A stretch of DNA of 64,000 nucleotides from Woeseiaceae bacterium (GCA_030066735.1 JASJBB010000061.1:1-64000); one strand, 5' to 3'. Shown: positions 9,668-14,635, numbered from the stretch's first letter. Translations and numbers: made by a program. Notes: generated from the sequence alone by a model not told the origin.

Positions 9668-10117
9668 ATGATGAAACGACTTGTCGGAGTATTGCTTGCG
9701 GGCGTCCTGGTTGCCTTCAGCACGGCCTCAATGGCGCACAAAGTACAAGTGGAGTGGATCGTGGAACCGGGCGCCGAGAACATGCCCTTCTCCGCGGCTG
9801 TCCGCGTGGGCCACCTGCTGTTCGTGTCGGGCGCGCTCGGCTACGACAGCGAGACGCGCTCGCTTGTCGAAGGCGGCATCGGCCCCGAGACCAGGAAGAC
9901 CCTGGAGAACATCCAGGCGACGCTCGAAGCCAACGGCTCGTCGATGGACAACGTCGTCAAGTGCACGGTGTTCCTGGCCGACATCGATGAATGGGCTGCA
10001 ATGAATGAAGTCTACGTCACGTTCTTCGGCAACAAGCCCGCGCGCAGCGCGCTGGGCGTGAACGGTCTCGCGCTTGGCGCCCGTACCGAAATCGAGTGTA
10101 TCGCCGTCGTTGACTAG
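9668..10117 (+). CDS. RidA/YjgF/UK114 family protein with signal peptide
   Basis: KPARSALGVNGLALGARTEIECIAVVD RidA motif; N-terminal MMKRLVGVLLAGVLVAFSTASMA signal peptide. Confidence 0.85.
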   Translation: MMKRLVGVLLAGVLVAFSTASMAHKVQVEWIVEPGAENMPFSAAVRVGHLLFVSGALGYDSETRSLVEGGIGPETRKTLENIQATLEANGSSMDNVVKCTVFLADIDEWAAMNEVYVTFFGNKPARSALGVNGLALGARTEIECIAVVD

Positions 10118-11907
10118 TCGGCTTCGGCGAGTGCTCGCGCGCGCGCCGCGAGCGCCTTCAGGCGCTTCTTGTCGAGAACGTCGCCCACTGCATCAGCCAG
10201 TGCAGGCTCGCTAAGGTCCGCTACCGCATCCCGCCACGCCTGGCCAACCTCGTAGGGTACCCCCTCGAGGCGGGCCGGTACGCCCCGGCGGGCCCGGAAC
10301 GCACGGTCATGGTTAACCAGCATGAGCTGCCACCAATCCAGGCTGTAGAGAATGTCTTCGCCACCGCGACCCTCGTTGTAGATCAGGGTGTCGAATACGA
10401 ACATTGCATTCCATTGCTCCTGCAATGCACACCAGGCCGCGCCACCGCGGCCGTCCGCCTGGCGCTCGAGTTCATCGATGAAATTCTTCGGGTGAAACCG
10501 TAACGACCCGTCGTCGCCGTCGATCTCGCGCACGACGGCAACCGGCACCATCTCGAGATCGATCAGCTGGTCCAGTCGGTACGCCACAACCTCGGGGTAG
10601 AAACCCTTGCCCTGGCGCTTGTCGAACACCGCCTCGAGCGTATAGGTGCCGTCGCTGACCGTGACGATGTCCTGACCGGAGTCGGATTCGCGCCGGGAAA
10701 CGATGTCGCCACTGCCAAGCACGGCCTCGATCTGCTCGAAACTCATCCTGCCTTGCGGCCGCGTGCCGACATTGCGCGGGCGCGGCTGGGCCAGAGTCGT
10801 GCTGCCGTCCTGGTTGACCGCCGACACGCCGTCGGCGTCGATCACGAGTACGTTGGCGCTGCCGCCATAGTAGTTATTGAGCATGCCGGTATCGATCTGA
10901 ATGATCCGGCCATCGAGCCGCTCCAGCACCTGCCGGCCGGGCGTTGGCGTGTGGCCGATGACAACGCGGTTGGCGCCGATCGCCTGCAGTACGCCCGCCA
11001 GTTTGTCCGACTCGATCAGCTCGCTGCAGACGACATTGCCGCGGTACCACAGCGGTCCCTCCAGGTCGTGAAGACTGGACGCACCGAGCTGTTTCACGGC
11101 TTCGATCGACATCAGCACATCGGCGCTGGTGTCCAGCGCCGGCATGTGCCGCGCGAGTATGGCCGGGTGATCATGAAAATTGTCGGTTGGCAGGAGTATG
11201 CCTTCGGCGAACAGGGCCTCTGCGTGACGCATGTATTCGCCCATCTCACCGATCAGCCGGCCGTTGACGCCTTCGAGGCCGATCTCTTCGACCATTGGCG
11301 ACAGCCCTCCGTGCACGAATGCGGTGCCGTTAACAACCACGATGGCGGGCTTGCCCAGGAGCCAGGCGCCGTACTTGCCGTCGCTTGCAAACGCGCGTCG
11401 ATGGGCGAAATACCCCGCCGGGAATTTCTGCCGAAACAGGGTGGCCAGGCCTTCGGGCGACTGGCCGCCAGGCGCTCGGGCCCGGGCGTACTCCTGGAAC
11501 CAGCGCTCTCGCTCCCCGGCCGTTTCTTCGTCGGCGAATGCGGCGTATTCGCTCGACGAGACGTAACGCAGATCGCCAACGAGGTTCATCGCCTCGTGAT
11601 TACCGATCAGCACGTGAACCTTGCCGCCCGCCAAATCGGCCTCGATCTCCAGCTGCATCAGCAGATCCATTGCCCGCCTGGAGTCGGGCCCGCGATCGAG
11701 GATGTCGCCGACGATGACCAGATGCGCAGACCCGGCCGCCCACGACAATTGCTCGTCCACGACGCTGGCCTTTTGCATGGCTTCGACCATCGCGTCGTAC
11801 GCGCCGTGAATATCGGCAACCGCCACGACCCGGGAGACACCGTCATATTGCCACTGGTTGGCCTGCGCCGGCATTGTGGCCAGCAGCAACCAGGCCAGTA
11901 GCAACAT
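10114..11907 (-). CDS. Exported calcineurin-like metallophosphoesterase with C-terminal kinase-like domain
   Basis: VADIHGAYD, VGDILDRGPDS, LIGNHEAMN, VIGHTPTPG; signal peptide MLLLAWLLLATMPAQA; C-terminus EVVAYRLDQLIDLEMVPVAVVREI...MFVFDTLIYNEGRGGEDILY...LMLVNHDRAF. ORF-track start 12693 rejected because it overlaps the divergent gene. Confidence 0.75.
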   Translation of the reverse strand: MLLLAWLLLATMPAQANQWQYDGVSRVVAVADIHGAYDAMVEAMQKASVVDEQLSWAAGSAHLVIVGDILDRGPDSRRAMDLLMQLEIEADLAGGKVHVLIGNHEAMNLVGDLRYVSSSEYAAFADEETAGERERWFQEYARARAPGGQSPEGLATLFRQKFPAGYFAHRRAFASDGKYGAWLLGKPAIVVVNGTAFVHGGLSPMVEEIGLEGVNGRLIGEMGEYMRHAEALFAEGILLPTDNFHDHPAILARHMPALDTSADVLMSIEAVKQLGASSLHDLEGPLWYRGNVVCSELIESDKLAGVLQAIGANRVVIGHTPTPGRQVLERLDGRIIQIDTGMLNNYYGGSANVLVIDADGVSAVNQDGSTTLAQPRPRNVGTRPQGRMSFEQIEAVLGSGDIVSRRESDSGQDIVTVSDGTYTLEAVFDKRQGKGFYPEVVAYRLDQLIDLEMVPVAVVREIDGDDGSLRFHPKNFIDELERQADGRGGAAWCALQEQWNAMFVFDTLIYNEGRGGEDILYSLDWWQLMLVNHDRAFRARRGVPARLEGVPYEVGQAWRDAVADLSEPALADAVGDVLDKKRLKALAARARALAEAD

Positions 11908-11991
11908 CGTCGTTACAAGGGCTTTATGCAAAGTGAGCGAATCCCGACTAGAATGACGGCAGCCGCTGGAACTGCCCGTCAAGAGGTTGTG

Positions 11992-13038
11992 ATGCTGTTT
12001 CGACATTGGACCGTAGCTTTCGTCGCGTTGTTCCTCGCCGCAGGCGTGGCAAACGCCAAGGATATCAGGGAATACGACCCGCTGTTCTCCGCTCACGACA
12101 CGCTGAAGATCGAAGTCGAGGGGCCGTTCGCCTTCCTGGCGCGCGAGCGTCCCGACGAGGAGGAGGCCGAGGGCAAAGTCCGGTTCACCAATGCCGACGG
12201 CGAGACCATCGAGTTCGACGTGCAGGTTCGCGCACGCGGTAACTGGCGGCGCAATCCCGAGATTTGCGATTTCCCGCCGCTCAGAATCAACTTCAGAAAG
12301 TCGCAGACCGATGACACGCTGTTCCACAAGCAGGACAAGATCAAGCTCGTCACCCACTGCAACAACACGAACCGCTACGCGCAGGCTGTCGTCAGCGAGT
12401 ATCTCGCCTACCGCATCTACAACGCCCTGACCGATTACAGTTTCCGGGTGCGGCTGGTCGACATTACGTACGTCTACACGGACCGCGAAAAATCGGATAA
12501 TTCCTACGCCGTGCTCATCGAGCACAAGGAACGCCTTGGCAAGCGCATTGACGGTGAGACGGTCATGACCGAGCGCGTGCCGGTCGGCTCGATTTATCCG
12601 CAAAACCTGAATCTCGCCTCGATGTTCCAGTACTTCATCGGCAACACGGATTTCTCGCCGGTTGCGGCGCCACCGGACGAAGAGTGTTGCCACAACCAGG
12701 CGTTATTCACGAGCGAGGAAGGTCCCTATCGGACGATACCGTTCGACTTCGACCAGACCGGCCTCGTTGACGCCAAGCACGCGGCGCCCAACCCGCGCTT
12801 CGGCATCTCGACCGTCAAGGTGCGGCTCTATCGCGGCCGCTGCGTGAACAACGAACTGTTGCCGGAGACGTTGCAGCACTTTCGTGACAAGCGCCCGGAG
12901 ATCGAAGCGCTGATCGAGAACCAGCCGGAGCTGACGCCACCGACGAAGCGCAACCTGCTCAAGTACGTCGATTCCTTCTACGGCGTCATCGACAAGCCGC
13001 GGCGCGTCAAGTACCGCATTACCGACAACTGCCTGTAA
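11992..13038 (+). CDS. Exported CotH-like/atypical kinase-fold protein
   Basis: Signal peptide MLFRHWTVAFVALFLAAGVANA; VRARGNWRR, MFQYFIGNTDFS, PFDFDQTGLVD motifs resembling CotH/atypical kinase catalytic motifs. Confidence 0.6.
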   Translation: MLFRHWTVAFVALFLAAGVANAKDIREYDPLFSAHDTLKIEVEGPFAFLARERPDEEEAEGKVRFTNADGETIEFDVQVRARGNWRRNPEICDFPPLRINFRKSQTDDTLFHKQDKIKLVTHCNNTNRYAQAVVSEYLAYRIYNALTDYSFRVRLVDITYVYTDREKSDNSYAVLIEHKERLGKRIDGETVMTERVPVGSIYPQNLNLASMFQYFIGNTDFSPVAAPPDEECCHNQALFTSEEGPYRTIPFDFDQTGLVDAKHAAPNPRFGISTVKVRLYRGRCVNNELLPETLQHFRDKRPEIEALIENQPELTPPTKRNLLKYVDSFYGVIDKPRRVKYRITDNCL

Positions 13039-13041
13039 ACG

Positions 13042-13998
13042 TCAGTGTTGCAGGTCTTCGGTCAGCCAGTCGTTGACGATCTTGCTGACGCGCGGGTGAA
13101 TGTAATAGCCGATCGAACTGTGCGGGTTTGATTTGCCGTAGCGCACGGCCAGGTTGTAGATGCGGTAGTCGCGCACCTCGCTGACCAGCCGCTGGTCCAG
13201 CATCTTCTTGAAATCGTCGGCCAGCGTATTGTCATGACAGGTGTAGTCATCTTCGGCCGCCACGTTGTGCCAGGAGATCACATTGGTCGGATAGCGCGCG
13301 CTCGGATGTTCGCCGGCGCCTTTCAGGTGTTTGCGGATATAGTGGTCGCCCAGCGGTGCGCCGAGCGTTACCCACGCCTCAACCTTGCGCCCTCCATAGC
13401 GTGCAACCAGTTGCTCGTCGTGCGACAGCTCCCAAAGCACGTCGTAGGCGATGATGCAGCCGAGCCCGTGCGACATCAGCAAGACCCTGCCATCGCGCCC
13501 CAGCGCCTCGCACAGCTTCTTGCGCACCCGCTCGCGCACCTTTTCGGCGTAGTCGGTCTTGCCCGCAAGGTACTCTGCAGCCTCGCGTGACACCATCCGG
13601 ATCAGCGGCAGCGTCAGCCCGATTGCACCCAGCACCGGCGCGAGCATGTCGGCTGCAAACTCGCGCAACGCGGACTTGCCCGGCACCCGGTCATACTGGC
13701 GGATGCTGAACTTCTTGCGTGGCTGGATCTGCCGCAGCGCCGCATGCGCATTGCGGCGATCGCCGATGTCGAGCTTCTGGTCGTAGCGCCTGCCAAGGCC
13801 CTCCAGGTAGGCGTTGGTAATGTCGCCGTAATACCCCAGTTCCACCCGTGCCTGTTCCAGCAGCGGCACGGTGTCGGGGTAATCGCGCCGGACGCCGGCG
13901 CGCATAGCCCGGTAGGAAATGTCGAGCAGGTCGTCCTCGGCCGGCTTGAAGTCCCGACCGTGCACGACCACGATGCTGCAGTCGCTACTGGTACTCAT
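13042..13998 (-). CDS. Alpha/beta hydrolase-like protein
   Basis: IVVVHGRDFKP and nucleophile-elbow-like LLMSHGLGCIIAYDVLWEL; overlaps DUF4956-like stop by 14 nt. Confidence 0.55.
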   Translation of the reverse strand: MSTSSDCSIVVVHGRDFKPAEDDLLDISYRAMRAGVRRDYPDTVPLLEQARVELGYYGDITNAYLEGLGRRYDQKLDIGDRRNAHAALRQIQPRKKFSIRQYDRVPGKSALREFAADMLAPVLGAIGLTLPLIRMVSREAAEYLAGKTDYAEKVRERVRKKLCEALGRDGRVLLMSHGLGCIIAYDVLWELSHDEQLVARYGGRKVEAWVTLGAPLGDHYIRKHLKGAGEHPSARYPTNVISWHNVAAEDDYTCHDNTLADDFKKMLDQRLVSEVRDYRIYNLAVRYGKSNPHSSIGYYIHPRVSKIVNDWLTEDLQH

Positions 13999-14635
13999 CC
14001 TCGCCTGCATCCCTGCGCGTCATCATCGTCAGGAAACGTCCCGACAGCGTCTTGCCATACTCGAGCCGCCAGATTCCGAGTGTCGCGAACACGAACGCCA
14101 TCGATATGACGGTCGCCACCCCGAGCGCGCCGATACCCGAGCCGAGGCCGATCGCGATGGCGACGAATATGTACATCGCGTCCGACGGCTGCTTCAGCGC
14201 AAACCGGAAGCGCACGGCCGCCACGATCCCCGCCAGGCTGAACGCGAGCGCCAGGCTGTTGAGCACGATCATGGAGATACCGGTAACGACGACCGGCAGG
14301 ATCATGATCGTCTGTACGAACGACTGGTCGATGCGCCGTGCCCGGCTGGTGATGAAATAGGCCCACGAGACCGGGATCGTCAGGATGATTGCGCCGACGC
14401 TGGCGATCGCCAGTTGCACCGCGCCGTGCGGCGAGCGAACCGTCCGCTCGACGGATGAGTAGATGGGCTCGAAGCCGTCCGTGTTGGACTGGGCCAGGAA
14501 TTCGATGCCGCCAATGGGGAAATACTGGTTCAGCGCCGGGTACCTGGCCAGCAGGTACCACATCGAACCCACCCAGAAGCTGTAGTAAATAACTATCAGC
14601 GTCAGCGGAATTCCCAATCCACCGGATCTTCGCAC
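13985..14635 (-). CDS. DUF4956-like membrane protein
   Basis: Several TM segments; LALAFSLAGIVAAVRFRFALKQPSDAMYIFVAIAIGLGSGIGALGVA matches the DUF4956 style. Confidence 0.65.
   Translation of the reverse strand: MRRSGGLGIPLTLIVIYYSFWVGSMWYLLARYPALNQYFPIGGIEFLAQSNTDGFEPIYSSVERTVRSPHGAVQLAIASVGAIILTIPVSWAYFITSRARRIDQSFVQTIMILPVVVTGISMIVLNSLALAFSLAGIVAAVRFRFALKQPSDAMYIFVAIAIGLGSGIGALGVATVISMAFVFATLGIWRLEYGKTLSGRFLTMMTRRDAGEDEYQ

Follow-up and report, generated by a model that had tools for sequence, protein, structure and literature searches.

In a marine gammaproteobacterium, two genes for predicted exported proteins lie back to back: one encodes a phosphatase with intact motif residues, fused to a degenerate FAM20-like kinase domain, the other an apparently intact, distant CotH-type kinase, and their linkage is conserved. 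The pair may form an exported (periplasmic or surface) phosphorylation–dephosphorylation module in which a pseudokinase docks the phosphatase or tunes the kinase, a reading that we hold with even weight for and against. The CotH-like protein would act as a kinase, passing phosphate from a presumed donor to an exported substrate, and the Shewanella-like PPP phosphatase would strip the phosphate from the same substrate. In this lineage the FAM20-like part of the fusion would have lost catalysis; now a pseudokinase, it would most likely dock the phosphatase to kinase or substrate, or tune the kinase by allostery, much as FAM20A does with FAM20C.

The window (the whole stretch of DNA analysed, 64,000 nucleotides) is contig C144 of a draft genome of 3.34 Mb that is 85% complete. 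The features are given by window position:

10114–11907, minus strand: predicted exported PPP phosphatase (Shewanella-like) and predicted FAM20-like pseudokinase domain in one protein, 597 aa
11860–11907, minus strand: predicted signal peptide of the fusion, residues 1–16 (...MPAQA/NQW), from sequence
10783–11850, minus strand: metallophosphoesterase domain, residues 20–375 (Pfam Metallophos; PDB 2z72)
10117–10776, minus strand: predicted FAM20-like pseudokinase domain, residues 378–597 (profile match to FAM20A; G513 in the catalytic-Asp column, N532 in the metal-Asp column)
11908–11991, no strand: divergent intergenic region, 84 bp from start codon to start codon
11992–13038, plus strand: CotH-like atypical kinase, predicted exported, 348 aa (Pfam CotH matches of relatives; hhalign; AF2/Foldseek)
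13042–14010, minus strand: conserved neighbour, alpha/beta-hydrolase-like by motif alone (synteny and motif alignment)
13985–14635, minus strand: DUF4956 membrane protein, conserved neighbour (Pfam PF16316, 5.2e-9, over the cut-off; synteny)

The fusion ORF begins with the ATG at 11907 and its stop codon ends at 10114; a second in-frame ATG lies upstream of this start, at 11926. The gap of 84 bp between the divergent genes, as given in an earlier note on this DNA, is correct for ATGs at 11907 and 11992. The motifs quoted there were all recovered from the translations: VADIHGAYD, GDILDRG, GNHEAMN, GHTPTPG and the C-terminal stretch in the minus-strand ORF, and FQYFIGNTDFS and PFDFDQTGLVD in the plus-strand ORF (11992–13038). 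The same note had ascribed signal peptides to both proteins, and hydrophobic N termini with A-x-A sites were found in each. By a simple hydropathy test, which is a heuristic, 68/68 aligned relatives of the fusion and 28/32 aligned relatives of the CotH-like protein have a hydrophobic stretch ahead of the mature start; export of both is predicted accordingly from their sequences.

Phosphatase and FAM20-like domains of the fusion

The phosphatase region was matched over the cut-off by Pfam Metallophos (residues 26–274, 3.1e-11), and its best solved matches are 2z72, 1v73 and 2zbm (each about 1e-33). The Shewanella cold-active protein-tyrosine phosphatase 2z72 was matched with 8.8e-34 in three collinear stretches. 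The GDxHG-type motif (which reads ADIHG here), GDxxDRG, GNHE and two downstream His motifs are all intact, and D32, H34, D68, R72, N103, H104, H199 and H319 are identical in 32/32 relatives, which bears out the calcineurin-like phosphoesterase with intact motifs claimed earlier. Given the match to 2z72, with which it shares the order of motifs, the protein is predicted to belong to the Shewanella-like (Shelph/SLP) PPP phosphatases, bacterial and Plasmodium members of which act on phosphotyrosine (PMC5658161). Unlike 2z72, whose chain of 342 residues is too short for one, the window protein has an extra FAM20-like C-terminal domain of ~220 residues, which is also absent from the phosphatase relatives L041 and L034.

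This C-terminal domain alone matched zero Pfam families. When an alignment of 31 relatives was compared with the PDB, the pseudokinase FAM20A came first (7.1e-6), and Pfam HipA_2 was matched by 7/31 relatives of the window-type domain (best 4e-4). Distant relatives in four other families (f4, f7, f10 and f12) carry the complete atypical-kinase signature, namely FK, E or D in the alpha-C motif, NxDRxxxN and L-I-D-(H/Q)-S-R. The profile of these intact sister domains matched FAM20A (4e-8), FAM20B (3.6e-6) and FAM20C (2.6e-5) in the PDB; in Pfam, the domains themselves matched HipA_2 (11/14), Fam20C (10/14) and PI3/PI4 kinase (7/14). Profile comparison (hhalign, 7e-66) leaves no doubt that window-type and intact domains are homologous. 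These matches support the Fam20/PI-kinase-like resemblance proposed in the earlier note. Similarity to the FAM20 family (FAM20A/B/C; PMC5865150) is strongest around the alpha-C and the catalytic and metal segments. An AlphaFold (AF2) model of the full fusion, built from a three-sequence alignment, reached a pLDDT of only 40.3, so the kinase-like fold of the domain is predicted from sequence profiles.

The catalytic Asp is replaced by Gly513 and the metal Asp by Asn532, and these columns are rarely Asp in relatives (1/32 and 3/32, respectively). This makes the domain a predicted pseudokinase, a possibility already raised in the earlier note; in 31/32 relatives the catalytic column holds a residue other than Asp. 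The Lys430 column is K in 19/32 relatives and the Glu439 column E in 18/32; N511 and R514 are invariant, and H533 and F537 nearly so. A predicted exported pseudokinase adjoining a predicted exported kinase resembles the pairing of FAM20A with FAM20C, the precedent for such a partnership (PMC5865150, PMC7948968). The window domain differs from FAM20A in that it is bacterial and fused to a phosphatase, and both Asp residues are lost, whereas FAM20A has Asp at both aligned positions; its partner is CotH-like, whereas that of FAM20A is a FAM20 paralogue.

The CotH-like neighbour

The window CotH-like protein falls below PF08757 detection and had zero Pfam matches; searches of Pfam/NCBIfam and the PDB with its sequence, and of the PDB with its alignment, gave no useful match. 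Two relatives, from a Bacteroidetes and a Saprospirales MAG, exceed the Pfam CotH (PF08757) cut-off of 23.8 bits with 35.1 and 24.5 bits (E 1.4e-8 and 2.3e-5). By using hhalign, a 51-member profile was matched to the CotH profile with P=1e-5 and a probability of 82%, against <=1.1% for control profiles; with just 9 sequences the CotH probability was 28%.

The AF2 model of this protein (pLDDT 80, pTM 0.83) was compared with BFVD by using Foldseek, and phage proteins were matched (E 2e-7 to 3e-4, prob 1.00), one of which (E 1.2e-4) carries the name spore coat protein H kinase fold; TM-scores were modest (0.39–0.47 for the first four). Mostly protein-kinase-like structures were returned from the PDB, none at E <= 0.001. 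The best of them (E > 0.001) was SbnC, which we take to be an IucA/IucC-type synthetase. The IucA/IucC family is placed in the Pfam kinase clan (PMC9758233).

Residues E177, D220, N235, D252, D254, G257 and R278 are invariant (51/51) and K118 is present in 49/51 sequences; with its putative catalytic residues invariant, the CotH-like protein is predicted to be active. In Bacillus subtilis CotH, a Ser/Thr kinase, the catalytic Asp pair is D228/D251 (PMC7821199). The stretch that holds D252 and D254 is aligned with CotH by hhalign, and D220 was assigned from motif order alone. The divergent gene, described beforehand as reminiscent of CotH, thus apparently encodes an intact, distant CotH-type kinase, as judged by the relatives over the Pfam cut-off, the hhalign match, the invariant residues and the structural comparison, in which the model matched phage CotH folds at the modest scores given above. 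With the CotH spore-coat kinases (PF08757; PMC7821199) it has in common a collinear profile match and the RG..R, N and D-x-D motifs, and with the phage CotH proteins a matching fold; it differs from the spore-coat kinases in being cysteine-rich, predicted exported, found in a Gram-negative host and undetected by Pfam itself.

The closest named relative of the CotH-like protein is from a Woeseiaceae MAG (L031, 82% identity), so that the host is most likely a gammaproteobacterium of Woeseiaceae type. Two more CotH-like paralogues are present in the window genome (L042, G000:C109:21040-21987; L043, G000:C80:12048-12992), and a phosphatase fusion was not seen in 1.5 kb on each side of either. In two genomes the phosphatase fusion has a further CotH-like gene on its other side (L052:6133-7056 and L053:9254-10177).

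Gene linkage and alternative readings

Full-length relatives of both proteins (40–80% identity) are adjacent in dozens of genomes, so the gene pair reflects more than chance; by a rough estimate, the probability that one copy would fall within 1 kb by chance is 0.3% for each genome. Across the order, fusion and CotH-like gene lie <=3 kb apart at 38 distinct loci in seven family-level groups, and a DUF4956 membrane gene usually accompanies them. The count adds the window to 38 fetched rows and drops one duplicate, L003 and L045 being from the same genome. The genes are arranged head-to-head (f1, f9), in tandem (f5, f6, f15 and one f1) or with DUF4956 between them (f8, f16), and the order L-PSP, fusion, CotH-like, hydrolase-like, DUF4956, carbohydrate-kinase-like is kept across much of the family. 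Among 196 genomes sampled from the order, the FAM20-like domain occurs in 63 and the CotH-like protein in 46, and 43 genomes have both. Phylum-wide samples (299 genomes) yielded a single further CotH-like relative and, the window's own genome aside, zero relatives of the FAM20-like domain. L041, a distant Pseudomonadota genome, has the phosphatase without the extra domain, followed by CotH-like and DUF4956 genes; in a Bacteroidetes MAG (L034) phosphatase and CotH-like genes stand in tandem, and in a Gemmatimonadetes MAG (L033) the CotH-like gene adjoins DUF4956.

The neighbour at 13042–14010 matches neither Pfam nor NCBIfam families. The expected Ser nucleophile is Gly in f1 and Cys in f8/f16 (SHGLG / HCxG), and the protein is possibly another pseudoenzyme.

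The DUF4956 gene may bear on the nature of the substrate. In Gram-positive Pel polysaccharide clusters, cotH occurs together with DUF4956 and a gene for a polyphosphate polymerase (PMC7112168), and the proximity of CotH-like and DUF4956 genes is common to the window, which differs in having the phosphatase–pseudokinase and in that no VTC polyphosphate polymerase was found in the 85% complete genome. The CotH-like protein might accordingly phosphorylate a surface polysaccharide, a polyphosphate-related compound or a small molecule instead of a protein, with the phosphatase editing the same phosphoglycan; FAM20B, a xylosylkinase that phosphorylates xylose, is a precedent for a non-protein substrate (PMC5865150). 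We regard this as possible and rather doubtful: a VTC polymerase was not found in this draft genome, polysaccharide genes were not recognised directly next to the pair, and the phosphatases of known structure that come closest are protein-tyrosine phosphatases.

The state of the FAM20-like site varies with linkage. Both Asp residues are present in 0/38 CotH-linked fusions and in 16/26 fusions with long flanks and without a CotH-like gene; three further fusion copies at contig ends were kept outside this comparison. The contrast is striking, yet with only 3 changes of intactness and 2 of linkage on the tree built from the phosphatase part, it counts neither as independent replication nor as a statistical test. 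Degenerate sites without a linked CotH-like gene occur in a second f1 clade, L077 and L082, and two genomes (G007 and G048) combine an intact domain with an unlinked CotH-like gene. In most copies of the second f1 clade (L083, L105–L111, L122), which has no CotH-like neighbour, the metal Asp is retained and the catalytic Asp is lost.

That several lineages have degenerate domain columns, some without linked CotH, would also fit two exported enzymes that work independently and have nothing but their location in common, with the FAM20-like domain as a decaying, functionless relic, and plainly metabolic genes (e.g., L-PSP and carbohydrate-kinase-like) do lie nearby too. This we consider unlikely, however: the full-length domain is kept in most of the 63 genomes with non-catalytic N511, R514, C493 and H533 conserved, and the linkage outlasts rearrangement and recurs in distant bacteria. 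Slightly less probable still is a FAM20-like domain alive with another reaction (e.g., AMPylation or glutamylation) through migrated residues, as in SelO and SidJ: altered-site kinase-fold proteins do so according to works cited in PMC7948968, and the conservation of N511, R514, H533 and F537 would suit it, but a conserved nucleotide chemistry is disfavoured because the Lys430 and Glu439 columns vary among relatives.

Nucleotide supply and the proposed module

The periplasm is not expected to contain free ATP. An ATP/ADP-translocase-like membrane gene adjoins the fusion convergently in f4, f7 and part of f12, with eight copies at seven loci (L068, L076, L078 twice, L081, L082, L117 and L120; e.g., L081:4188-6230), mostly beside an intact FAM20-like site; several copies have a C-terminal Ig-like domain. 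Five scanned copies passed the Pfam TLC cut-off (23–35 bits against 21). Three of these five were matched by the NCBIfam NTP/NDP exchange model far below its cut-off, so the transported substrate is uncertain. A TLC-type ATP/ADP transporter was not found in the window's 85% complete genome. The fusion has an OmpA-family gene as a neighbour in f7, f10 and part of f12. At L064:5907-7229, and also at L066, L068, L072, L074 and L075, it encodes an OmpA-family outer-membrane protein with thrombospondin type 3 repeats next to the intact-type fusion, for which this protein is possibly substrate or envelope context. TLC and OmpA neighbours together suggest that the intact-type enzyme has a supply of nucleotide and works in an envelope setting; they carry nothing direct on the window.

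The conserved gene linkage strengthens the hypothesis of a periplasmic module, in which kinase and phosphatase would act on one exported substrate. Matching specificity is not assured, because the closest solved phosphatase acts on Tyr (PMC5658161) and CotH on Ser/Thr (PMC7821199). More tentatively, and well short of an even chance, an exported FAM20-like kinase fused to its antagonistic phosphatase may be supplied with ATP by the adjacent ATP/ADP translocase in some Gram-negative lineages, while elsewhere, including here, the fused kinase may have decayed to a pseudokinase once a CotH-like kinase took over in trans. Such a decay would be a bacterial parallel to FAM20A–FAM20C. No report of a metallophosphoesterase–FAM20 fusion, or of its pairing with CotH, was found in the open-licence literature searched; what is new is the combination and its conserved linkage, each component being in, or a distant cousin of, a known family.

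To our knowledge, extracytoplasmic kinases are well established in animals and hardly known in Gram-negative bacteria. One reason for the few known examples is that the periplasm is thought to be ATP-free. If the proposed module is real, the question of periplasmic phosphorylation would become directly testable through the phosphatase–(pseudo)kinase and CotH-like pair and through the translocase-like neighbours in sister lineages, and a bacterial pseudokinase would have arisen beside its replacement kinase.
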